From assembly GCA_024998645.1 (NCBI GenBank), contig JACOEJ010000001.1:40506-104505 (forward strand): a stretch of 64,000 nucleotides of DNA, read 5' to 3'. A program made the position numbers and the translations under genes. Under the pieces are notes generated by a model. It was not told the origin of the DNA, searched no databases, and saw only the letters and a program-made list of their open reading frames with translations. Shown piece after piece: positions 29,205 to 45,701 of this stretch (positions within the stretch are counted from its first letter, which is position 1; each line of letters starts with the position of its first letter). Origin of the DNA: Nitrospira sp. Its GTDB lineage: Bacteria; Nitrospirota; Nitrospiria; Nitrospirales; Nitrospiraceae.

Positions 29205-29579
29205 TCACCGCAACGTCTTCAGCCAGGCTTGAATGTCGGCCATCTGCTGTTCGGTGATCGCGCCTTTCAACGGTGGCATCACGTGCCGCCCTTCGTACAC
29301 GACTTTCCAAAACGCATGCTCATTGGATAGCACGGGATTGCCCGCTAACCGGGGACCAAGGCCACCTGTGGCACCGGATTTATGACAGACAATACAACTG
29401 GCATTGTAGAGTTCCTCGCCTCTGCTGCTGTCCCCCACAGGACGCATCGACACACTCCCGCTCGATCCAATCGTGTCCGCGTTCTGCGGCCCACCGTCGC
29501 TCGCCCCATTCACAACCCCGTTTCCCGCGACCTCAAGAACGACTAAAGAGAGGACGGCGCAGATCACCCATCTATTCAT
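29205..29579 (-). CDS. monohaem c-type cytochrome
   Basis: This 124-residue protein has a signal peptide (RWVICAVLSLVVLEVAGNGVVNGA) and haem motif CIVCH. The downstream sequence GLGPRLAGNPVLSNEHAFWKVVYEGRHVMPPLKGAIT with candidate ligand Met resembles the second domain of the dihaem protein at 40776-41393. ATG 29579 follows GGAG. It is the last intact gene of the operon starting at 31456. Confidence 0.9.
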   Translation of the reverse strand: MNRWVICAVLSLVVLEVAGNGVVNGASDGGPQNADTIGSSGSVSMRPVGDSSRGEELYNASCIVCHKSGATGGLGPRLAGNPVLSNEHAFWKVVYEGRHVMPPLKGAITEQQMADIQAWLKTLR

Positions 29580-29607
29580 CGGCATCACTCCATTTCGTTT
29601 TCCGGCA

Positions 29608-30036
29608 TCACTTGGGTGCCGCTGCGCCTCCCTTCCTAAGGAGGGCCAGATACGCCAGAGTATCGGCAAGTTCCTGATTCGTCATCGTCGTATCGGGAAA
29701 CATCCCGGTGCCCGGATGGCCCTCACGAACGGCTTTCGCACGCTGCTTGTCGTTTTTCAGATGGAGTGTTTTCGAATTACGGAGATCGGCCGGCGGAGGA
29801 CTCAGGCGGGCAATCAATGCAGCGGTATCGGCGGCTAACTGAGGCCGCTTCTCCATTTGCCCGTCGACACCATGACAGTAGTAACAGACGCCTTTCCCGT
29901 TGAACACCGCTCGCCCGGCACCGGCATTGCCTTGTGCGGAAGTCGACTGGCTTGCCTGCTGCCGCGCCGCTTGAACAGAATGGCCATCACATAAGACAAA
30001 CCCGATCAGGGCAAGACCAACGTAGGATATTCTCAT
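29608..30036 (-). CDS. monohaem c-type cytochrome
   Basis: This 142-residue protein has a signal peptide (ISYVGLALIGFVLCDGHSVQA), haem motif CYYCH and probable Met ligand in GTGMFPDTTMTNQELADTLAYL. AAGGA precedes ATG. It belongs to the minus-strand operon 31456-29205. Confidence 0.9.
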   Translation of the reverse strand: MRISYVGLALIGFVLCDGHSVQAARQQASQSTSAQGNAGAGRAVFNGKGVCYYCHGVDGQMEKRPQLAADTAALIARLSPPPADLRNSKTLHLKNDKQRAKAVREGHPGTGMFPDTTMTNQELADTLAYLALLRKGGAAAPK

Positions 30037-30106
30037 CGTGATATTCCTTCTGCGTTAGCTGTTCCGGGCTTACCTCATAGGTGCGGCGGAGATGTGCAGT
30101 AGCCCA

Positions 30107-30451
30107 CTAGTATTTCTCCACTCCCTTTCGTCCTCCCGCATGACAACGAAGACAGTCGGCAAAACGCCCGGGGCCATGAATGCCCTGCGCTTTCGACCGA
30201 AGATTTCTGACCAGATCGTTATCCAACGTCCGGGGGCTGAGGCTCTGGTCTCGTTCCGCCCGGTGACAGTCCCAACAAGTCTTCGCACCGGTGGCGCGAA
30301 AGATCAGATCGCTGTGGGGATTGATTGTCTGGTCAACCGCAACGGGTACCAATAAGGTCTCGTGCGACGCTCCTTCGCTGCCCCCGATCCATACCCCCGC
30401 GACGAAGACCCCCACAAAGAAGCCAGACCATCGAGCAACCCTATCAGGCAT
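30107..30451 (-). CDS. dihaem c-type cytochrome, NapB/NrfB-like small multihaem type
   Basis: This 114-residue exported protein has an N-terminal hydrophobic segment (GFFVGVFVAGVWIGGSEG) and two haem motifs, CWDCH and CLRCH. Extra histidines (SHETLL, NPHSDLIF) could serve as distal ligands, suggesting bis-His low-potential haems rather than His-Met. ATG 30451 is chosen over TTG 30457 because GGA lies 8 bases upstream. Confidence 0.85.
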   Translation of the reverse strand: MPDRVARWSGFFVGVFVAGVWIGGSEGASHETLLVPVAVDQTINPHSDLIFRATGAKTCWDCHRAERDQSLSPRTLDNDLVRNLRSKAQGIHGPGRFADCLRCHAGGRKGVEKY

Positions 30452-30483
30452 GAACAACGTCCTTCTCCGCCAGGCATCATGCT

Positions 30484-30927
30484 TTAGGCAATCTGCTCCA
30501 TGGCGCGAAACGCTGTCTCGCGCTCCTCTGCGCTGATCATGCGATCCATTTCAGGATAGAGCACCTCCTCTTCCGACATGTTGTGCCGGTCCAGCAAATC
30601 GAGCAGAGTCTCTTCCTCCCGCTCGGTGTCCGGATTCTGCGCCTGGATCTTGCGATAAATGGCTTCCAACCAGTCCCCGATTTCCCGGTGCTCGTTACGC
30701 ATGACAATCGTGGGGCCTCCGCCGGTCATCCCCGACTTTCTCTCCCACAGGGGAAACAACACATCCTCCTCCCACACCACATGCCGCTGCAGTCCCGCCT
30801 TGAACTCAAGAAATGCGCTCTTGGCCTTGGGAAAATCGCTTCGCTTCAGAGTCTGGAAGGATTTGAACAGCGCATCCAGCCGTTCATGGTCTTCGTCAAA
30901 CATGGTGCTGATGGTGCGTTCGGGCAT
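30484..30927 (-). CDS. hemerythrin-like HHE domain protein
   Basis: This 147-residue cytoplasmic protein keeps the diiron ligands of hemerythrin-like domains: DEDHERLDALF, LQRHVVWEEDVLFP, MRNEHREIGDWL and DRHNMSEEEVLYPEMD. Such proteins bind O2 or NO or handle iron. GGGAGG precedes ATG. It is placed between cytochrome genes and a cytochrome c'-like lipoprotein, which suits an oxygen or nitric-oxide defence function. Confidence 0.92.
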   Translation of the reverse strand: MPERTISTMFDEDHERLDALFKSFQTLKRSDFPKAKSAFLEFKAGLQRHVVWEEDVLFPLWERKSGMTGGGPTIVMRNEHREIGDWLEAIYRKIQAQNPDTEREEETLLDLLDRHNMSEEEVLYPEMDRMISAEERETAFRAMEQIA

Positions 30928-30940
30928 ACACGCTCCCTCC

Positions 30941-31456
30941 CTATGAACTTCGCAGTTTGTATTCCAGATGGCAGGCCACGCAGGCCTTCAACACGTTATT
31001 GAATTGCGGCAGAATCTGCTTGAGATCTTTTGTCGGAATGATGCGGGCAAGCTCCTCCGCGGCCGCATGATGGGCCATGGTCAGGTCATGATAGGCCGGA
31101 GGAAAGTTCCCCGGCTGCTGATTCGCCATCGCCTGCCGATGCATGAAGAAGCCCAGATGTGTTTCCGTTAAACCTTTCGCCAACTCATAGTCTTCATCAA
31201 CCAGCGCATTCATGATCACTTGAATGGTTTCCAGATGCTGCAGCATCACGGCGCGATGTTCTGTTCCGGCTGCCGGCGACAGCGGAATGGCCTGTCTGAC
31301 ATCGGACGTCAGAATAGGATTCGACCGTTGCTCTCCGTGGCGATGTTCGACCTTCGTGCAACCAGCGAAGAACAACACACAGAGAGCTCCAAGACTCGCC
31401 GCTCCAAGAAGCACCTGCTTCCCTTTGTATCTTGATTGCGACCAACTCTGAAACAT
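30941..31456 (-). CDS. cytochrome c'-like haem lipoprotein
   Basis: This 171-residue protein has a lipobox (LCVLFFAGC) and a helical mature part ending in ACVACHLEYKLRSS. A single CxxCH at the extreme C-terminus of a four-helix protein is the cytochrome c'/c-556 arrangement; these bind NO or CO at five-coordinate haem. GAGGGG precedes ATG. It is the first gene of the operon that continues to 29205. A sigma-54-type promoter and palindrome lie upstream. Confidence 0.85.
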   Translation of the reverse strand: MFQSWSQSRYKGKQVLLGAASLGALCVLFFAGCTKVEHRHGEQRSNPILTSDVRQAIPLSPAAGTEHRAVMLQHLETIQVIMNALVDEDYELAKGLTETHLGFFMHRQAMANQQPGNFPPAYHDLTMAHHAAAEELARIIPTKDLKQILPQFNNVLKACVACHLEYKLRSS

Positions 31457-37581: not shown

Positions 37582-38151
37582 TTACCGATTACAGGCTTCG
37601 CCCTCACATCCGCCCATTCCACCTCTCGGGCCTCGATGCTCCATGCCGCCCATTCCTCCGCCGGGTCCCATCCCAGGGCCCATACCCTCGCCGCGCCCCA
37701 TCATCCCGTGACCATGCTCTCCGGCAAAGCTCCGCTCGTATTGGATGATCGACCAGATCTCTTCGTCGGTGAGCTGATCGCCGAATCCGATCATGGCCGT
37801 CCCGGGCGAGCCGTGCTTGATGACCCAGTAAATCTCGCCTTCCGTCCGATGCCGCCAGAATCCATGGTGCTGAAAATTACGCGGCGAGGGATCGAGGCCG
37901 ACTGCCGCCATGCCGTTTCCCGATCCGTCTTTGCCGTGGCAATTGAAGCAGGTGCCTTTGCCGTTGTAGAGCGCCTTGCCCTTCTCGACGATCTCGGCAG
38001 AATCCGGCAACGGACTCGCCAATGCGCGCGCTTCCGCCAGCTTGTCGGCCGGCACCAGCGACTGCATCATCTGGCGCTCAGCCGCCGACAAGGCCGATGC
38101 ACTCAAGACCGCACAAGCCAGCACAACCGCCAGCATACGTGTAATTGTCAT
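37582..38151 (-). CDS. c-type cytochrome with Met/Gly-rich C-terminal tail
   Basis: This 189-residue protein has a signal peptide (LAVVLACAVLSASALSA), haem motif CFNCH, and probable Met ligands in PGTAMIGFGDQL. After the domain, the last ~40 residues form a low-complexity tail rich in Gly, Met and His (HGHGMMGRGEGMG...) ending in a Cys pair (CEGEAC). Such tails bind Cu(I) in copper-handling proteins. It lies 17 bases downstream of ppk2, the last gene of the long minus operon. ATG 38151 has AGGA upstream. Confidence 0.88.
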   Translation of the reverse strand: MTITRMLAVVLACAVLSASALSAAERQMMQSLVPADKLAEARALASPLPDSAEIVEKGKALYNGKGTCFNCHGKDGSGNGMAAVGLDPSPRNFQHHGFWRHRTEGEIYWVIKHGSPGTAMIGFGDQLTDEEIWSIIQYERSFAGEHGHGMMGRGEGMGPGMGPGGGMGGMEHRGPRGGMGGCEGEACNR

Positions 38152-38168
38152 GGCCGCAATCCTGCTCC

Positions 38169-39230
38169 TCACAAATCGAGCTCCACCATCTTGCGATGAA
38201 AGCGCGTGATGATATTGGGATCCGGGGTCAGACGAATCTGGGTCTCTTCTTTGCCCTTGTAGGGCAGGAGATTCAACACATACCGCAGGCTCTCCAGCCG
38301 GGCGGACTGCTTGTCATTCGCCTTCACAATGATCCAGGGACTGAAGGTGGCGTGCGTTTTACTGAACATTTCCTCTTTATAGCGTGTATAGGAATCCCAG
38401 AGTTCCTGCGCTTTCTCATCGACCGGACTCAGCTTCCACTGTTTGAGGGGATTCTGCCGGCGCGCTTCAAACCGTTTCGCCTGCTCTTCTTTGGAAATGG
38501 AAAACCAGAACTTGATGATGGTCACGCCATCTTCATAGAGCATATGCTCGAACTCAGTGACCTGCTGCAGGAAGCGCTGATGATCCTTCTTGCTGCAGAA
38601 TCCCATCACCGGTTCGACCACCGCGCGGTTGTACCAACTGCGGTCGAAGAAGACGATCTCGCCTTTGTTCGGCAATTGCCGGATATAGCGCTGGAAATAC
38701 CATTGGCCCTTTTCTTCATCGCTCGGTTTCGGCAACGCGACCACGCGCATCGCACGAGGATTCAGATGCTCGGTAAACCGACGGATCGTGCCGCCCTTGC
38801 CGGCCGCGTCGCGGCCTTCGACCAGAATCGCAATGCGCTGGCCGCTCTCCTGCACCCACCGTTGCAATCGAACGAGTTCAACCTGAAGCTGCCGCAATTC
38901 CTGCTCATAGAGCAGCGTCTTGCGCACTTCCTCCAGATCGACCTCTTTACGCTTCAGGAGTGTCAGCAGCCCTCTTCGGGTGTTGATGCGAATCAGTTCG
39001 TCATCCGTCAACGCGTGCCCGGCTACACCGATCGCATAGGCGATCTGATCGACGGTTTTGCTCTGTCTCTGGCGATAGCCATCACCTTGCTTGGGGATCG
39101 CCGTGGGAATGGTTTCCAGTTCATCGGCCAACAGTTCGCCGTCATGACCGATAATGCCATCGGAGCCTTGCTCGTTTCGGCTCTCTTTTTTGTTCTTGGC
39201 TTTGCCGGTCGACTCATCATCAGCAGCCAT
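38169..39230 (-). CDS. ppk2: polyphosphate kinase 2 (PPK2) family
   Basis: This 353-residue protein has Walker A VEGRDAAGKGGTIRRF, lid and Walker B segments (SDEEKGQWYFQRYIRQLP; IVFFDRSWYNRAVVEPVMGFC), and KFWFSISKEEQAKRFEAR. PPK2 enzymes phosphorylate nucleoside di- or monophosphates from polyphosphate. The ~90-residue N-terminal helical extension is usual for the single-domain class. It would let the cell make GTP/ATP from stored polyphosphate when respiration stops. GGGGGG precedes ATG. Confidence 0.94.
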   Translation of the reverse strand: MAADDESTGKAKNKKESRNEQGSDGIIGHDGELLADELETIPTAIPKQGDGYRQRQSKTVDQIAYAIGVAGHALTDDELIRINTRRGLLTLLKRKEVDLEEVRKTLLYEQELRQLQVELVRLQRWVQESGQRIAILVEGRDAAGKGGTIRRFTEHLNPRAMRVVALPKPSDEEKGQWYFQRYIRQLPNKGEIVFFDRSWYNRAVVEPVMGFCSKKDHQRFLQQVTEFEHMLYEDGVTIIKFWFSISKEEQAKRFEARRQNPLKQWKLSPVDEKAQELWDSYTRYKEEMFSKTHATFSPWIIVKANDKQSARLESLRYVLNLLPYKGKEETQIRLTPDPNIITRFHRKMVELDL

Positions 39231-39262: not shown

Positions 39263-39622
39263 TTAGAATACGACACTGCGGTCCCGCTCCGCGACCGCTT
39301 TGATGTAATCCGGCATGCCTTTAATAGACGCGCCGGCGACCAGATCCGCTCCGCCGATTTGCCTGGCCACCGCGCAGGCGCCGCAGACCCATATGGGAAT
39401 ATTTGCAGTTTGCACCCCGGCAAGCAAGTCTTTTAACGGAGTCAAATTCACGCCATGGACATGATCGGCTGTGCCCTTCCGTCCCAGCGTGACCGCTTCA
39501 TTCCAGAGCCAGAGGACGACATCGTGCCCCTGCTCCTTGGCCGCTTTCGCCGCGACGAACGGGAGCGTCGCCATCGTGGGATCATCCGTGCCGCGGCTCC
39601 CAGAAATAATAAACGTCGCCAT
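39263..39622 (-). CDS. DsrE-family protein (cytoplasmic)
   Basis: This 119-residue protein has the DsrE/TusD fold (ATLPFVAAKAAKEQGHDVVLWLWNEAVTLGR, then IWVCGACAVARQIGG and ASIKGMPDYIKAV). The CGAC cysteine is at the position used for persulfide relay in TusD/DsrE. It is likely a sulfur carrier or redox sensor linked to the neighbouring sulfur-oxidation-type genes. GGAGGAG precedes ATG. Confidence 0.85.
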   Translation of the reverse strand: MATFIISGSRGTDDPTMATLPFVAAKAAKEQGHDVVLWLWNEAVTLGRKGTADHVHGVNLTPLKDLLAGVQTANIPIWVCGACAVARQIGGADLVAGASIKGMPDYIKAVAERDRSVVF

Positions 39623-39677
39623 TAATTGCTCCTCCGTGAATCGTCACTCGTCAAGCGTCGCTCGCAAATCGGACGGT

Positions 39678-39717
39678 GAGGCGTCTCTCGCGCATTACGC
39701 TTCGAGAGAGACGCCTC
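39678..39717. repeat. long hairpin between cytochrome and dsrE genes
   Basis: GAGGCGTCTCTC (39678-39689) and GAGAGACGCCTC (39706-39717) form a perfect 12-bp stem with a 16-base loop. No U-tract follows on either strand. It may attenuate or process the transcript; short repeats of TCACTCGTCA/CGTC type flank it. Confidence 0.5.
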
Positions 39718-39728
39718 CCGCGCTTGCG

Positions 39729-40739
39729 CTACTTCGGCCCTTTGAACGTCGTCTTCAAATACGCCATGACATCGGCCACGCCCTGTTGCCCGATGGTCAG
39801 ACCCCAATAGGGCATGTTGGCGGACTTTCCCATCGCCGCGCCGCCGTGATTGATCATGTTGTAGAGATATTCCGTCGGCACTTCGCTGAAATTGATGTTG
39901 GCGTGAATCGCCGGTTTCGGCTCAAGAGTGGGGGCCGCAGGTCCGTCGCCTTTTCCGGTGGCTCCGTGACACTGCATGCAGTACTCCTTGTAAATGATCT
40001 TGCCGCGCCCCGGGCTCGCCTTTGCGAATTCCGGCGCCGTCCAAGGCTCGTAATACGTGAAGTCAGGGACGCCCTGCGCGGCGAGATAGCCGATGACCGC
40101 CCGCAATTGCGGCTCGGTGGCGTCGGCCAGAAATTCCCCGGTGTGAATGATGAAATCCTGCGGGTTCTGGCCGAAACGGAACAGCCAATCCATGTTGTAC
40201 CGCTGTCCGGATTTCTCCAATGCAATGCTCTGCTGTCCGCCGATGAGCTTCCCGTTTTCTTCGATCGTATGACAGCCGAGACAGGCGTGCGCCTTGTAAG
40301 CCATCCCGCCGAACGCCACTTCATACTTGGAGACCTTCCCAACATCGAAAGCCCCGACTTTCACTCGGGGATCCTTGTTGTGCTCGGCAAAATAATCGGC
40401 GATGCCGTTGGCCTCGGCCTCCGATACGGTCACATGTTTATGCGCTTCCTGCGATTGATCCCAGCGATACCCTTTGACGTACAGAGGCGCTTCTTTGCCG
40501 GTCAACCATCGAATCAACCAGGCCCGGTTATACTTGCTCCCGGCCCAGATAAGATCGGGCGCCTTGAGATTGAAACGGGATTCAGCCTGGCCTTCCATCC
40601 GGTGACATTGGACGCAGTTCTGCTGGACCAGCTCCTTCGCCTTCGGCAGATCGGCGCCGAACAACACCGGCGGAATCGACAGCGCTCCCACCAACGTCAG
40701 CAACGCCCCTCCGACAACCACGCTCTTTCTCACGTTCAT
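39729..40739 (-). CDS. trihaem c-type cytochrome
   Basis: This 336-residue exported protein carries three CxxCH sites: CVQCH (~43), CLGCH (~155) and CMQCH (~257), in separate cytochrome c domains, with candidate Met ligands such as GKSANMPYWG. The signal segment is VVVGGALLTLVGALSIPPVLFGA. AAAGGAG precedes ATG. Placed just after the sulfite-oxidase-type pair, it is a plausible electron acceptor passing electrons to the terminal oxidase. Confidence 0.9.
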   Translation of the reverse strand: MNVRKSVVVGGALLTLVGALSIPPVLFGADLPKAKELVQQNCVQCHRMEGQAESRFNLKAPDLIWAGSKYNRAWLIRWLTGKEAPLYVKGYRWDQSQEAHKHVTVSEAEANGIADYFAEHNKDPRVKVGAFDVGKVSKYEVAFGGMAYKAHACLGCHTIEENGKLIGGQQSIALEKSGQRYNMDWLFRFGQNPQDFIIHTGEFLADATEPQLRAVIGYLAAQGVPDFTYYEPWTAPEFAKASPGRGKIIYKEYCMQCHGATGKGDGPAAPTLEPKPAIHANINFSEVPTEYLYNMINHGGAAMGKSANMPYWGLTIGQQGVADVMAYLKTTFKGPK

Positions 40740-40775
40740 GCCGCTCCTTTCCTCTGTAGTGAACTCCGCTCTCCG

Positions 40776-41393
40776 CTACTTCGTCAGTAACCATGTGTGA
40801 ACATCGGCAATATCCTGCTGACTCAGCACCGATCCCCAGGCCGGCATCGGCCCCCGCCCATGCAACACAGTTTCCCAGAACAGATCGTCCTGTTTCAGGA
40901 TCGGATTCTTCGCCAGCTTCGGTCCCATGCCACCGGTTGCACCGGCGCCGTGACAGGCCTGGCAATTGTGTTCGAAGATGCCCGCCCCTCTTGTCGATAC
41001 GCCGACGAGCGGACCGGTGTCCGCCGGCTCTTGTGTCAGCGGCTCCGCTTTTCTCAATTCATGATCAAGCGTCGGCAGATGATCCGGCGCAGCCGGGTGA
41101 TAGCGGGCGGACAGATACCGCACGAGAAGGTCGGCTTCATCGTCAGCAATCTCCGCCCCCCAATGTTTCATCTTGTCGACGGTCGCTGCCCAGCGGTCTT
41201 TCGGCAGGCGCTGTTGAGACACCAGATCAGGACTGTGGCACACCGAGCAACGCGCAATGATCAACCCTTCGGCACGCGGCGCCAGCGCGGCGCTCACCGA
41301 CGCCAGATCGTCTTCTTGCGCCGCCGTCATCGCAGCCAGCCCTGCAAGCCCCAAGACGAACAGGCCAATGAGTGGAAGGCTCCGCGTCATCAT
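40776..41393 (-). CDS. dihaem cytochrome subunit, SorB/SoxD-like
   Basis: This 205-residue protein has a signal peptide (LPLIGLFVLGLAGLAAMTAA) and two domains: CSVCH followed by RLPKDRWAATVDKMKHWGAEI, the phrase seen in sulfite dehydrogenase cytochrome subunits, then CQACHGAGATGGMGP. ATG 41393 overlaps the upstream enzyme stop (ATGA), so the pair is co-translated, which supports subunit pairing. Confidence 0.88.
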   Translation of the reverse strand: MMTRSLPLIGLFVLGLAGLAAMTAAQEDDLASVSAALAPRAEGLIIARCSVCHSPDLVSQQRLPKDRWAATVDKMKHWGAEIADDEADLLVRYLSARYHPAAPDHLPTLDHELRKAEPLTQEPADTGPLVGVSTRGAGIFEHNCQACHGAGATGGMGPKLAKNPILKQDDLFWETVLHGRGPMPAWGSVLSQQDIADVHTWLLTK

Positions 41394-42574
41394 AACGCCA
41401 CCGTAATAGCAACATGGTCCCACCCGTTCCACAAGAATCCGCCGGGGTTCCACGGGCTCTCTTGGGGTTGGACCTGTCCATTGGCATCCGTCGCTCGACA
41501 GAGGATCGTCACGGCACCAGCTGTCTTGGGCCTCCACAGAAACTGCCATTGCCGCCAGGCGTAGGGCTCGTCCTCGCCGACCAGCCGGGCCTGTTCCCAG
41601 GTCTTGCCGTCGTCGAACGAGAGCTCCACGGTCGCGACAGCGGCGTCTCCGCTCCAAGCCACGCCCTGCACGGTGACCGGTCCCCGTCCGACCTGGTCGC
41701 CGTTTGCCGGCAAGGCGATCAGCGACTTCACCACCATCGCTTCGACGGGAACCATCGAGGTCCCCGGCAGACCGGAGTTCGGCTGAATCGCCGTGACCGG
41801 CACGCGGTAGGCCGTCTGCATGTAATAGCCCTTAGCTTCATCCGCCTGCACCGTGATATCCGTCAGCCACTTGGTGCAGGAGTCCGCCATCCAGCCGGGA
41901 GTAATGACCCGCAACGGCGCGCCATGCAGCAGCGGCAAGGGCCGCCCGTTCATGTCATAAGCAAGGATCGTGTCCGGATGAACGGCTTTCTCCAGCGGAA
42001 TGCTTCGAGTAAATAACGGGACAGACGATACAACCGGGCGATCGGCGCCCTGGAGTTGCACATGTTTCCCATTGGGGCGTACACCGGCCTTGGCCAGCAC
42101 GTCCCGCAGCCGCACACCGGTCCACTGCGCATTGCCGACCGCGCCGCGCTCCCATTGCACACCCGGCACTTTCGGACGATGGAATGCGCGCCCGTTGCCG
42201 CTGCATTGGACGACCGCCGTAATTGTCACCTGCTCGAATTCTTTGAGATCCTTGAGCGTGAGTTCCAACGGATGTTCGATCAATCCCCCGACATGCAGCC
42301 GCCAATTGGCCGCCGCAATCAATTCAGGCGCGGGCGGGCCGAAATGACTCCGCACGAAAAACCGATGATTGGGGGTCAGATAGGACGTGAATTCGCGCAC
42401 GGGCGTTTCTGCATCGTACGGCCGCATCACGCGAACGGTCTGCGGGCCGGTTTCCGGTGAAGCCGTCTGCTCGGCCGGCGCCGGTCGCACCTGATGCCAG
42501 ACCGCGAGTCCGCCTAGGATTTGGGCCATGCGCTGCCAGAGGGTTCGACGTGACAGTGAGAGGGATTCGCTCAT
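41390..42574 (-). CDS. molybdenum sulfite-oxidase family enzyme (SorA/SoxC-like)
   Basis: This 394-residue protein has a Tat-type signal (SLSRRTLWQRMAQILGG, cleavage near APA), the molybdopterin domain with the Mo-coordinating cysteine in VVQCSGNGRAFHRPK (~150), GAPLRVITPGWMADSCTKWL, and a C-terminal Mo-co dimerisation domain (VATVELSFDDGKTWEQA). The family oxidises sulfite to sulfate, passing electrons to a cytochrome c; the downstream dihaem gene fits that role. ATG 42574 overlaps the OsmC stop. The exact substrate is inferred. Confidence 0.88.
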   Translation of the reverse strand: MSESLSLSRRTLWQRMAQILGGLAVWHQVRPAPAEQTASPETGPQTVRVMRPYDAETPVREFTSYLTPNHRFFVRSHFGPPAPELIAAANWRLHVGGLIEHPLELTLKDLKEFEQVTITAVVQCSGNGRAFHRPKVPGVQWERGAVGNAQWTGVRLRDVLAKAGVRPNGKHVQLQGADRPVVSSVPLFTRSIPLEKAVHPDTILAYDMNGRPLPLLHGAPLRVITPGWMADSCTKWLTDITVQADEAKGYYMQTAYRVPVTAIQPNSGLPGTSMVPVEAMVVKSLIALPANGDQVGRGPVTVQGVAWSGDAAVATVELSFDDGKTWEQARLVGEDEPYAWRQWQFLWRPKTAGAVTILCRATDANGQVQPQESPWNPGGFLWNGWDHVAITVAL

Positions 42575-42984
42575 GCATGCACTCCCGGTGCATGAGGATT
42601 GAGCTGGATCGTGACGGCCGGGGCACCGGAGAGAGATTGGTGCACCGTGCACCCCTGGGCGACCTTCAACAAGCGCTCTTTCATGTCCGGCGTGAGACGA
42701 TGCGGCAACCGGATCGCCAACATCATCTTCCCCACGCGATGAGGCCCTTCTGCCATCTCCCACTCGGCATCCACCGCGAGGCCTTCGCGCGAAATGTCAT
42801 GCCGCGCGCAGAACTGACCGACGAAGTAGCCGACACAGCTGGCGACCGAGCCGACAAAGAGTTCGACCGGACTCATACCCGCATTGTGGCCGCCGTCTTC
42901 TTTCGGCTGATCGGTCACCACACGATGCTGACCGCTGGTGATGTCATAGCGTGTACCACCGTGATAGGCCACAGTAAGATTCAT
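42571..42984 (-). CDS. OsmC-family protein
   Basis: This 137-residue protein matches OsmC/YhfA: GHNAGMSPVELFVGSVASCVGYFVGQFCARH gives the catalytic cysteine, with a second cysteine in KVAQGCTVHQSL. OsmC proteins reduce organic peroxides or persulfides with dithiol donors. GGGAGG precedes ATG 42984. Co-translation with the sulfite-oxidase-type gene suggests a sulfur-related function. Confidence 0.9.
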   Translation of the reverse strand: MNLTVAYHGGTRYDITSGQHRVVTDQPKEDGGHNAGMSPVELFVGSVASCVGYFVGQFCARHDISREGLAVDAEWEMAEGPHRVGKMMLAIRLPHRLTPDMKERLLKVAQGCTVHQSLSGAPAVTIQLNPHAPGVHA

Positions 42985-43030
42985 CGCACACCTCCCGACT
43001 ACGCTCGATTGCCGCCTGACAAACGACGAT

Positions 43031-43885
43031 TTAGTACGGTATATCCGCCGGCTTGCCACCCTTCGGCCAATCGAGCTGCTTGCCGGGGAAATCCGGACGC
43101 GGCTGGCTGTTCACATAGGCCGCCACATCGAAGGCTTCATCGTCGGTCAGTGTCCAACCCCAGCCCCTCGGCATATTGGACTTGATAAACGACGCCGCCA
43201 CCGTGACGCGAGCCATCCCGGCTGCAACATTGTAGGAATGCGGACCCCAGACCGGCGGCGCGGCCATCGTCCCCTGTCCGTCCGCGCCATGGCAGAACAC
43301 ACACTTCGTGGCAAACTGCTTCTTGCCGTTCACGAGATCCGGAATGTGACTGGAGGTCAGACGTGGAATCCCTCGCCACGGCACCGCACTGCCCGGCGGG
43401 ACGTTTTGCGATAACCATTCGATATAGGCCACGACGGCCTGCAACTTAGAACTATCGGGGGGAAGGGCCTTGCCGTTCATACTGCGTTCGAAACATTCGT
43501 TGATGCGGTCCGCCAGCGTCATCTGCCGGTCCGCCCGCGCCCGATACTCCGGATACAAACGGCTGATGCCCACAAAAGACGCGGTGTTCGGATTCATGCC
43601 GGCATCGAGATGACAATTCGTACAATTCAGCCGATTGCCCACATAGGGACGCCCATAGTCCTGCGTATCGACCACGATCTTGTAGCCTAAACGTATCTGT
43701 TCCCCTCGCTGATCGCCCGGGATCGCATCCGGCGATGGCGGCGCAAACAACATATCAGCGGACGTTAACCCGTCCCCCCGGTGGCCGGACTCAAGAGTCG
43801 AAACGGCCTTCGGGGTTGGCGTGCACCCCCCCTCGCCGACCAAAAATCCAACCACCATAACGCAGGTCCAGAAATATGATCGCAT
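43031..43885 (-). CDS. TsdA-like dihaem cytochrome (thiosulfate dehydrogenase family)
   Basis: This 284-residue protein has a lipobox (VGFLVGEGGC) and two haem sites. The first is NRLNCTNCHLDAG followed by FVGISRLYPEYRARADRQ and DRINECFERSMNGKALPPDSS; the second is CVFCHGADGQGTM. The first-domain phrases are characteristic of TsdA, which joins two thiosulfates to tetrathionate (or the reverse). Whether the catalytic Cys ligand of TsdA is retained cannot be settled by eye. GAGGAG precedes ATG 43885. Confidence 0.85.
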   Translation of the reverse strand: MRSYFWTCVMVVGFLVGEGGCTPTPKAVSTLESGHRGDGLTSADMLFAPPSPDAIPGDQRGEQIRLGYKIVVDTQDYGRPYVGNRLNCTNCHLDAGMNPNTASFVGISRLYPEYRARADRQMTLADRINECFERSMNGKALPPDSSKLQAVVAYIEWLSQNVPPGSAVPWRGIPRLTSSHIPDLVNGKKQFATKCVFCHGADGQGTMAAPPVWGPHSYNVAAGMARVTVAASFIKSNMPRGWGWTLTDDEAFDVAAYVNSQPRPDFPGKQLDWPKGGKPADIPY

Positions 43886-43895
43886 GGGCTCCTCG

Positions 43896-44114
43896 CTAGC
43901 TCTTTCTTCCTGAGGTGATGGGACAGGTATTGATCCCGAACACGGCCCACAGCGGGCAAAATCCAATTGCGCCCGTCACCAGCGCAATAGTCCCAACCAC
44001 CAGTGCCACCCCGGTACCCACCGGCGGCAACCCCGCAAAGGCCCCGATTCCAAGTGCCAGAATACCAACGACAATTCGAATGGGTCGCTCAATTCCGCCC
44101 ACGTTGCATGTCAC
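43896..44114 (-). CDS. DUF2892 membrane protein
   Basis: This 72-residue protein begins MTCNVGGIERPIRIVVGILALGIGAFAG and contains a second helix (GVALVVGTIALVTGAIGFCPLWAVFGINTC). This is the YgaP-tail/DUF2892 pattern, commonly adjacent to rhodanese or sulfur genes. GTG 44114 follows AGGAGG at 6 bases. Confidence 0.9.
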   Translation of the reverse strand: MTCNVGGIERPIRIVVGILALGIGAFAGLPPVGTGVALVVGTIALVTGAIGFCPLWAVFGINTCPITSGRKS

Positions 44115-44210
44115 AATGGCACCTCCTGGTCTGAGGGATATATGAACTCTGTGCTACCGGCTGGTTGGAGGCACGGAGCCTGAAAGAGATTCATCCGCAC
44201 ATCAAGCGAC

Positions 44211-44576
44211 TTACTCCTGCCGGAACGTTCGCACATAGGCCAATACATCCCAGATTTCGTCGTCTGATAATGCAGTACTCCATGCCCCCATCGCCGTATT
44301 AGGCTTGCCATCGTGAATTCGTTTGAAGAGGCTGGCATCCAACCGGCTCTGGATACCCGGGGAGGTCAGGTCGGCCGGCTTTGGAACGAGGTGAAGTCCC
44401 ATCGTTCCCTTGCCGTCGATCCCATGACAGCGGATGCAGGTATTGGAATAGATTTCTCGACCGGTCACCGCGTCATATTCTTTCCCTGACGCGGGAAGAT
44501 CTTTCAATCCGCCGCCACCGAACCCGACCGAGACCATCCCGATCACAACGCTGAATATGATTCCGACAACACGCAT
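44211..44576 (-). CDS. monohaem c-type cytochrome
   Basis: This 121-residue exported protein has haem motif CIRCH near residue 48 and likely Met ligand in NTAMGAWSTALSDDEIWDVLAYVRTF. It is a close relative of the cytochrome at 49180-49530 (same KPADLTS and IHDG-x-x-NT segments). It is first in the operon running toward ppk2 and sits behind a sigma-54-type promoter. Confidence 0.92.
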   Translation of the reverse strand: MRVVGIIFSVVIGMVSVGFGGGGLKDLPASGKEYDAVTGREIYSNTCIRCHGIDGKGTMGLHLVPKPADLTSPGIQSRLDASLFKRIHDGKPNTAMGAWSTALSDDEIWDVLAYVRTFRQE

Positions 44577-44605
44577 ACGACCTCATCTGTTTACCAGAAA
44601 AGTAA

Positions 44606-44621
44606 TGCGAGCGATGTGCCA
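44606..44621 (-). promoter_or_regulatory. sigma-54 promoter for the cytochrome/sulfur operon
   Basis: Minus reading TGGCACATCGCTCGCA: perfect TGGCAC, five-base spacer, TCGCA. Predicted start near 44594. Confidence 0.6.
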
Positions 44622-44744
44622 TCGGTGCGGAAGTCAGGCGAGAAAACTATTCAATGATCCCAGTAGGTTAGCCTCTATGCCTGAAGGACGGATGGGCGCG
44701 TGAACTTCAACTGGCGAGAAACACCCCAGGCCAGCTTTCACACA

Positions 44745-44763
44745 TTGTCCCAGGATGCCCCAA
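44745..44763 (-). promoter_or_regulatory. degenerate activator palindrome upstream of the cytochrome/sulfur operon
   Basis: Minus reading TTGGGGCATCCTGGGACAA, centred ~147 bp before the -12; it keeps GCAT and GGACA of the proposed motif. Confidence 0.4.
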
Positions 44764-44773
44764 TACGAGGGAA

Positions 44774-45208
44774 TTAACGAATGGTTGGAACGAGGGTGAC
44801 GTGAGCCTTCATGGAGTTGGAAATGAGGCAATTGGCTTCAGCCTTTTCGATCAGCTCCTTCGCTTTGGCGGCATCCCCTCCGGCAGGAAGCGTAATCACC
44901 GGTTTCAGCATGATGGCCGTGAACTGAAACTTTCCCTCCACAAGTTCGAGCCGCCCTTCGGCGGAGCTCTCGTACGCCGTGAATGCTAATCCGGCCCGCT
45001 CGGCCACTGCGAGAAACGTCGTCATCAGACAGATATTCGCCGATGCCACGAACAAATCCTCCGGCGACCAGATGCCGTCGTGCCCTTTGAATTCCGGCGG
45101 CGTCGCGATCTGCACATCGGGTTTGCCCGCGCAGGAGATCACTCCCTTGCGCTGCTCCGTCCATTTCACTGCCGTGTGGTACAGATAGACTTTCGGTTTC
45201 GATTCCAT
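44774..45208 (-). CDS. OsmC-family protein, second copy
   Basis: This 144-residue protein has GIWSPEDLFVASANICLMTTFLAVAERAGLAF with the conserved Cys, and a second Cys in KAEANCLISNSMKAHV. The region before the cysteine differs from the copy at 42571, placing it in another OsmC subgroup. GGAAGGAGC precedes ATG. Probably a peroxide/persulfide reductase. Confidence 0.9.
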   Translation of the reverse strand: MESKPKVYLYHTAVKWTEQRKGVISCAGKPDVQIATPPEFKGHDGIWSPEDLFVASANICLMTTFLAVAERAGLAFTAYESSAEGRLELVEGKFQFTAIMLKPVITLPAGGDAAKAKELIEKAEANCLISNSMKAHVTLVPTIR

Positions 45209-45251: not shown

Positions 45252-45701
45252 TCACGGCTTTATGTACGCCCACCCTTGCTCCTGTCGCTCCATCAGCCGC
45301 ACCATCGCCGGTACCGTATCGCCGACTTCATCGAGCAGATCTTCACGCGAGACCTGCATCGCCTTCATCGTGTTGGAACAGGCCGTGTACTGCACCCCGT
45401 ACTCGGTCTTGAGCTGAGCCAGTTCAGCGCCGAATGTGGTCGTCTTCTTGGTGAGCAGCCCGAGCCCGGCCCCATGCACCACCAGTTCCAGTTCAAGACG
45501 CTCGCGCCCGACCGCCTGATAGAGATGACGGATATTATTCAATACTCCCCGTTGAACTTTCTCATCGCCTGAATTCAGATGCATGACGACACGATGTTGC
45601 TGATCCGGTTGATTCTGCCGACCAACTCTGTCTCCGGCCAAGAGAGGTGACGCCATGACCACCACTAGAAGCGCTGACATGGCAACCCACTGTTTCCTCA
45701 T
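45252..45701 (-). CDS. exported DsrE-like protein
   Basis: This 149-residue protein has a signal peptide (AMSALLVVVMASPLLAGD) and a DsrE-like core (VVMHLNSGDEKVQRGVLNNIRHLYQAV; ELELVVHGAGLGLLTK; GVQYTACSNTMKAM). The single cysteine in YTACSNTM matches the active cysteine of periplasmic DsrE proteins. GGGGGGAG precedes ATG. Confidence 0.85.
   Translation of the reverse strand: MRKQWVAMSALLVVVMASPLLAGDRVGRQNQPDQQHRVVMHLNSGDEKVQRGVLNNIRHLYQAVGRERLELELVVHGAGLGLLTKKTTTFGAELAQLKTEYGVQYTACSNTMKAMQVSREDLLDEVGDTVPAMVRLMERQEQGWAYIKP

Follow-up and report, generated by a model that had tools for sequence, protein, structure and literature searches.

Judging from its sequence, the gene cluster described here probably equips Nitrospira with a module that oxidises sulfur oxyanions in the periplasm. 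It lies in a 64,000-nt stretch of Nitrospira sp. DNA (GCA_024998645.1, contig JACOEJ010000001.1), which we call the window and whose positions are used throughout. We favor the sulfur-module reading since the catalytic residues are intact and the gene order is conserved, both of which are directly observed together with the genes themselves, and since sulfur-transporter and Rieske/cytochrome b genes are found as neighbors in relatives.

Gene content and order

The genes are listed below in the direction of reading.

45252..45701, minus strand: DsrE2, DsrE family protein with a signal-like start read from the sequence (Pfam DsrE 33.4 bits, cut-off 22.7)
44774..45208, minus strand: OsmC2, OsmC/Ohr-like (PF02566 64.6 bits; Ohr and OsmC models match weakly)
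44211..44576, minus strand: cytS, small monohaem cytochrome c with a CIRCH motif (PF13442/PF00034)
43896..44114, minus strand: DUF2892/YgaP-like transmembrane protein (PF11127 67.1 bits), 10 bp before TsdA
43031..43885, minus strand: dihaem cytochrome c of the TsdA type, probably a lipoprotein (E 2.3e-55 against A. vinosum TsdA; PF21342; haem ligands conserved)
42571..42984, minus strand: OsmC1, OsmC family (PF02566 48.8 bits), 4-bp overlap with SorA
41390..42574, minus strand: SorA-like molybdopterin sulfite dehydrogenase with Tat-type signal (2blf E 8.8e-72; PF00174 and PF03404)
40776..41393, minus strand: SorB-like dihaem cytochrome c (NCBIfam SorB in domain 1, SorU in domain 2; two CXXCH)
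39729..40739, minus strand: trihaem cytochrome c (three CXXCH, at residues 42, 153 and 254)
39263..39622, minus strand: DsrE1, cytosolic DsrE family protein whose VCGACA cysteine motif is conserved (PF02635 66.4 bits; weak YchN match)
38169..39230, minus strand: PPK2 polyphosphate kinase, a constant downstream neighbor (PF03976 320 bits)
37582..38172, minus strand: monohaem cytochrome c overlapping PPK2

All genes named in the original prediction, which covered 39263-45208, are present on the minus strand in the order it gave, including OsmC (two PF02566 proteins), DUF2892 (PF11127 match at 43896-44114) and the trihaem cytochrome (three CXXCH in 39729-40739). Both ATGA overlaps proposed for OsmC1-SorA-SorB were found, each of 4 bp. 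DsrE proteins had been placed in the same interval; DsrE1 is there, while the second DsrE (45252-45701) lies just beyond it, yet forms part of the same gene run. A terminator-like stem was located at 37393-37372, past the monohaem cytochrome c gene, and a promoter scan returned no promoter.

Gene order was counted in 80 loci of relatives and, for SorA, in 24 SorA-bearing loci. OsmC1 adjoins SorA in all 24 SorA-bearing loci and SorA adjoins SorB in 23, while DUF2892 directly precedes TsdA in 44/80 relatives and cytS is found upstream of TsdA in most. The third cytochrome, trihaem in the window, is tetrahaem in 47/62 relatives; DsrE1 is 83-99% identical in relatives. A PF04143 YeeE/YedE pair is inserted between TsdA and OsmC1 in 27/80 loci; 12/80, those of N. 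defluvii and N. moscoviensis among them, have Rieske/cytochrome b genes upstream. These neighbors support a role in sulfur metabolism and electron transport. PPK2, DksA and DnaJ/CbpM are encoded just downstream of the cluster, which could suggest a general cytochrome and stress cluster where the sulfur enzymes reside by chance. This is very improbable given that the TsdA-OsmC and OsmC-SorA-SorB orders are kept across many species and that sulfur-transporter genes are inserted at the same place in relatives.

The SorA-like enzyme and its cytochrome partner

The original prediction of a Tat-exported sulfite-oxidase family enzyme was borne out by an N-terminal SRRTLWQ motif read from the sequence, by PF00174 and PF03404, and by Starkeya SorA (2blf) as the closest match (E 8.8e-72). 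Residues R75, H77, C124, R129 and Y256 correspond to Starkeya R55, H57, C104, R109 and Y236 and are kept in 31-33 of 33 orthologues. NCBIfam SorA is still the best of all models for this protein, yet at 330 bits it falls short of the cut-off of 600, as do SorT (243 bits, cut-off 570) and SoxC (214 bits, cut-off 420). The SorA of the window belongs to a distinct clade, under every curated SorA, SorT and SoxC cut-off. These scores, and the replacement of Starkeya Y199, Y212, W213 and W231 by A, S, C and Y, could point to a substrate other than sulfite; we regard this as improbable since the active-site residues checked are of the sulfite dehydrogenase type and SorA is the best model.

The adjoining gene, joined to SorA by an ATGA overlap, had been described as a SorB/SoxD-like cytochrome. 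The protein has two CXXCH motifs and a SorB-like first domain, where residues 44-98 score 52.8 bits for SorB against a cut-off of 93. Its second domain is cytochrome c6/SorU-like (SorU 28.2 bits on residues 143-200), and both CXXCH motifs, M75 and M183 are invariant. A monohaem SorB partner above the curated cut-off was not found; the partner in the window is dihaem. The Tat-type motif of SorA and the Sec-like start of the SorB-like protein would mark both for export. The structure model of the SorB-like protein is too uncertain for claims about haem pockets.

The pair resembles SorAB of Starkeya novella in SorA family fold, active-site residues, Tat-type export and an adjoining cytochrome gene, but differs in the separate SorA clade, the dihaem SorB and the OsmC gene overlapping SorA. 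Like this pair, SoxCD and the SoxC-type paralogues found in some Nitrospira combine a molybdoenzyme with a dihaem cytochrome, which is SoxD in the case of SoxC; these paralogues, however, score 531-571 bits for SoxC against 214 for the SorA of the window.

The TsdA-type cytochrome

The protein predicted to be a TsdA-like dihaem lipoprotein has two CXXCH motifs and is a probable lipoprotein; its Cys21, in lipobox position, is nearly invariant. It matches A. vinosum TsdA (4wqc) far above chance (E 2.3e-55) over the dihaem domain, and PF21342 scores 49.3 bits (cut-off 27). C88/C91/H92 and C131 (equivalent to A. vinosum Cys96) at haem 1, and C195/C198/H199 and M238 (equivalent to Met209) at haem 2, each occur in at least 93 of 97 aligned sequences. 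Judged by sequence, H92 and C131, conserved in 93 of 97, would provide the His/Cys ligation of haem 1 known from A. vinosum His53 and Cys96. The catalytic residues of both TsdA and SorA, whose loss was checked for, are all intact. An AlphaFold2 model (pLDDT 57.9) has TsdA structures as its top Foldseek matches (TM 0.37-0.45), and is too uncertain for haem pockets.

Like the A. vinosum and C. jejuni enzymes, the TsdA of the window has two c haems, a Cys/His active-site haem and a haem-2 Met; unlike them, it is a probable lipoprotein and has OsmC, SorAB and many cytochrome genes as neighbors. Where A. vinosum has Lys208, the window has Asn, as in C. jejuni, and Asn237-Met238 and Lys235 align with C. 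jejuni N254-M255 and K252. C. jejuni TsdA, with Asn-Met at haem 2, is mainly a tetrathionate reductase, and N254K did not make it oxidation-adapted (PMC5146829). Because of the N254K result, the direction of TsdA cannot be read from the Asn residue. The protein belongs to the thiosulfate dehydrogenase/tetrathionate reductase family and, given the shared Asn-Met pair, could act in either direction.

A genome may have TsdA or SorAB without the other. Among 147 Nitrospiraceae genomes, TsdA was found in 99 and SorA of the window clade in 71, with TsdA without SorA in 46 and SorA without TsdA in 18. One explanation is that TsdA serves as a tetrathionate reductase, a low-oxygen electron sink, while SorAB oxidises sulfite under different conditions. 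The match to C. jejuni and the separability of the two enzymes favor this; we consider it rather unlikely, as the residue does not tell direction and TsdA enzymes are bidirectional.

Proposed role and distribution in Nitrospira

For the sulfur module we infer the substrates, the direction of TsdA, the path of the electrons, what OsmC and DsrE do, and whether the gain is energy or detoxification. SorA, Tat-exported with a Mo cofactor, would oxidise sulfite to sulfate and pass two electrons via the dihaem SorB-like protein, while the TsdA lipoprotein would interconvert two thiosulfate and tetrathionate at its Cys/His haem. The small and trihaem cytochromes could pass electrons on to the cytochrome c pool, which would serve nitrite oxidation as well, and OsmC and DsrE proteins may deal with cytosolic sulfur, whether reactive or sulfane. 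Residues, order and neighbors in relatives partly support the predicted feeding of cytochromes from sulfur oxidation, in which TsdA may run in either direction and SorA is SorA-like. Counting against the sulfur module are the SorA score (330 against 600 bits), the dihaem, sub-cut-off SorB, Asn237-Met238 of TsdA, the separability of TsdA and SorAB, the lack of PF04143 and SoxB in the window genome, and the poor structure models. The literature examined describes no physiological test of the module.

Another possibility, to which we give appreciable though lesser credence than an even chance, is detoxification, with SorAB and TsdA clearing leaked-in or endogenous sulfite and thiosulfate, OsmC removing peroxides or persulfides, and growth on sulfur not the purpose; electrons would still reach cytochrome c. 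The enzymes are flanked by two OsmC proteins and DsrE, the window genome (89% complete) gave no match to SoxB or the PF04143 transporter, and eukaryotic sulfite oxidases act in this way (PMC3578206). The many dedicated cytochromes, and the Rieske/cytochrome b genes adjoining in some relatives, suggest respiration instead. SoxC above its cut-off combined with SoxB, as in a Sox system, was not found in the window genome, and neither was TIGR03478 (NXR-like beta subunit), a model which may not fit NXR. In Hyphomicrobium, YeeE-like SoxT imports sulfur for oxidation (PMC11582611); H. denitrificans resembles the 27/80 relatives in having YeeE-type transporters beside sulfur-oxidising genes, while the window genome has neither transporter nor SoxB.

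SorAB proposed as a sulfite:cytochrome c oxidoreductase is known from the nitrite oxidisers Nitrospina gracilis and lineage IV Nitrospira (PMC3578206, PMC12342949), and a 2025 survey describes SorAB as largely restricted to lineage IV Nitrospira (PMC12342949). That picture appears to miss the SorA clade of the window. Family f3 SorA copies (same order), which we infer are probably those of lineage IV, score 584-589 bits with NCBIfam SorA and are 38-39% identical to the SorA of the window. N. moscoviensis and N. defluvii have the cluster in their own loci, and their relatives are among its carriers as well. SorA is rare with ammonia monooxygenase (5/53 AMO genomes vs 66/94 others). A strict exclusion based on amoA alone (1/46) was rejected, since amoB revealed that amoA is missing from several draft genomes; repeated switching was likewise given up after the amoB-based count.

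In soils, drinking water and wastewater, Nitrospira rank with the main nitrite oxidisers. Sulfur compounds may be a further source of electrons for these bacteria of the nitrogen cycle. We tentatively suggest, at somewhat under even chances, that lineage I/II Nitrospira possess an unrecognised and distinct sulfite dehydrogenase, this SorA clade with dihaem SorB, coupled with TsdA; that canonical nitrite oxidisers therefore share a periplasmic sulfur-electron route; and that the sulfite arm of this route is largely gone from comammox relatives. If so, surveys holding SorAB restricted to lineage IV overlook a clade. A thiosulfate/sulfite module conserved in cultured species, N. moscoviensis and N. 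defluvii, would bring the nitrogen and sulfur cycles together within a single cell and could help explain survival without nitrite.

Gene run and partners

The genome carrying this locus is Nitrospira-like (3.2 Mb, 140 contigs, 89% complete), and its nearest named loci belong to MAGs such as that of Nitrospira sp. CG24D (TsdA identity 92%). Nine minus-strand genes fill positions 39263-45208 and are listed here with their flanks and junctions.

Genes and junctions of the proposed sulfur module
45252-45701: second DsrE, just upstream of the interval, signal-like start
44774-45208, minus: OsmC2
44211-44576, minus: small cytochrome
43896-44114, minus: DUF2892/YgaP-type protein; 10 bp gap to TsdA
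43031-43885, minus: TsdA; 46 bp gap to OsmC1
42571-42984, minus: OsmC1; -4 bp (ATGA) junction with SorA
41390-42574, minus: SorA; -4 bp (ATGA) junction with SorB
40776-41393, minus: SorB-like cytochrome with two haems; 36 bp gap to the trihaem cytochrome
39729-40739, minus: trihaem cytochrome
39263-39622, minus: DsrE1; 32 bp gap to PPK2
38169-39230: PPK2; -4 bp junction with the cytochrome
37582-38172: last cytochrome
37393-37372: terminator-like stem, 3' of the last cytochrome

The tight OsmC-SorA-SorB order with ATGA overlaps described in the original prediction is borne out at both junctions, while of the DsrE proteins it placed in the module one lies inside and the second just outside. Terminator-like sites such as the one listed occur near chance level (10 found, 7.4 expected). 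Elsewhere on the minus strand, 29205-31456 holds a row of small cytochromes c, a hemerythrin and a cytochrome c'-like protein.

A regular TsdA and a divergent SorA

TsdA matches the Allochromatium vinosum enzyme (phmmer E 2.3e-55). When orthologues were aligned with the latter, the haem motifs fell at C88-X-X-C91-H92 and C195-X-X-C198-H199, C131 at the catalytic Cys96 and N237-M238 at Lys208-Met209. Each of these features occurs in at least 93 of 97 alignment rows, and C131, N237 and M238 are invariant in a 32-sequence alignment. The predicted TsdA-like haem ligands thus appear to be in place by alignment (CXXCH motifs, C131, M238). The Asn-Met pair is shared with TsdA of Campylobacter jejuni, which serves tetrathionate respiration, has Cys138 and Met255 as sixth ligands with Asn254 directly before Met255, and was not converted by an N254K substitution (PMC5146829). 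Since that substitution did not convert the enzyme, and TsdA enzymes are described as working in both directions (PMC6879331), we assign no direction to the TsdA studied here.

SorA is closest to the Starkeya enzyme (E 8.8e-72); R75, H77, C124, R129 and Y256 correspond to R55, H57, C104, R109 and Y236 and are conserved in 31-33 of 33 orthologues, and SRRTLWQ reads as a Tat-type motif. The protein scores below all three curated NCBIfam cut-offs (SorA, 330 bits against 600; SorT, 243 against 570; SoxC, 214 against 420), while SorA proteins of another family in the same order reach 584-589 bits with the SorA model. Identity is 54% or more within two families and does not exceed 46% in the rest of the phylum sample, and the SorA tree puts this protein in a clade distinct from both Starkeya SorA and the SorA of the other family. 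The first domain of the SorB-like partner resembles SorB (52.8 bits, under the cut-off of 93), the second is of cytochrome c6/SorU type, and both CXXCH motifs, M75 and M183 are invariant in 22 sequences. A distinct SoxC-type paralogue (531-565 bits) occurs in several Nitrospira; such a molybdoenzyme, above the curated SoxC cut-off, is found in the genomes of loci L016 and L024 (G012 and G001).

Distribution among Nitrospiraceae

In 147 Nitrospiraceae genomes, TsdA was found in 99, SorA in 71 and ammonia monooxygenase (AMO; amoA or amoB) in 53. SorA is rarer with AMO (5/53 against 66/94 of the others), although the Fisher p of 2e-13 overstates the evidence because the genomes are related. The cluster-gene tree, on which AMO labels denote amoA only, suggests that SorA was lost only a few times, once on the branch leading to an AMO-bearing clade of genus g17 and at other points within genus g1, where the early-branching AMO genome G021 keeps SorA. 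The SorA proteins of three further AMO genomes form their own clade in the SorA tree, and TsdA is kept in 45 of the 53. Neither amoA nor amoB was found in the 89% complete genome studied here, in line with its putative identity as a canonical nitrite oxidiser.

According to a 2025 Nitrospirales survey, SorAB is for the most part confined to lineage IV, apart from two exceptions; when the main text was searched by term, thiosulfate came up only alongside sox genes (PMC12342949). A 2020 comammox study described periplasmic sulfite dehydrogenases from LK70, WS110 and some further comammox genomes, as well as from three closed genomes of nitrite oxidisers (PMC7078480). The LK70 locus has TsdA and OsmC1, and no SorA of the present clade was found there, so the 2020 study may have been describing a different paralogue, for example SoxC. 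Earlier work mentions TsdA in Ca. Nitrotoga, an unrelated nitrite oxidiser (PMC9239080); judged by titles, abstracts and term counts, the openly available literature searched contained no discussion of TsdA in Nitrospira.

Conserved neighbours and function

Across the 80 named genome loci that carry TsdA, every OsmC1 found (72/72) is located no more than 2 kb from TsdA; SorA directly follows OsmC1 in all 24 SorA-bearing loci, with SorB after it in 23. Nitrospira moscoviensis and Nitrospira defluvii each have TsdA, OsmC1, SorA, SorB, a multihaem cytochrome, DsrE1 and PPK2, and loci lacking SorA usually keep the order TsdA-OsmC1-cytochrome-DsrE1-PPK2. Of all the cluster's proteins DsrE1 is the best conserved, at 83-99% identity among relatives, and it persists where SorAB is missing. 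The trihaem cytochrome has a tetrahaem counterpart in 47 of 62 relatives, whose C-terminal fourth haem domain is missing here.

A pair of genes for half-size PF04143 (YeeE/YedE sulfur-transport) membrane proteins directly follows TsdA, before OsmC1, in 27 of the 80 loci (L082:10891-11966; L101:10943-11982 in N. moscoviensis). YeeE-like SoxT proteins of Hyphomicrobium bring in sulfur for oxidation (PMC11582611); neither a PF04143 protein nor SoxB was found in the 89% complete genome. In 12 of the 80 loci, genes for a Rieske protein and for a cytochrome b fused to a c domain are found upstream; in one of these 12 the contig reaches only the cytochrome b end. In N. defluvii (L133:6575-9680) these two, a small cytochrome c and a Tll0287-like haem protein directly precede TsdA, and 11 other loci have Rieske and/or cytochrome b genes.

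In the proposed scheme SorA-SorB would oxidise sulfite to sulfate and pass the electrons to the cytochrome c pool, with which TsdA would exchange electrons for thiosulfate/tetrathionate. The same chemistry is compatible with detoxification, the main rival explanation. The module pairs a regular TsdA member with a SorA from a divergent clade, whose SorB carries two haems and whose gene overlaps that of an OsmC protein; its most likely function is to shuttle electrons in the periplasm between the cytochrome c pool and sulfur oxyanions.
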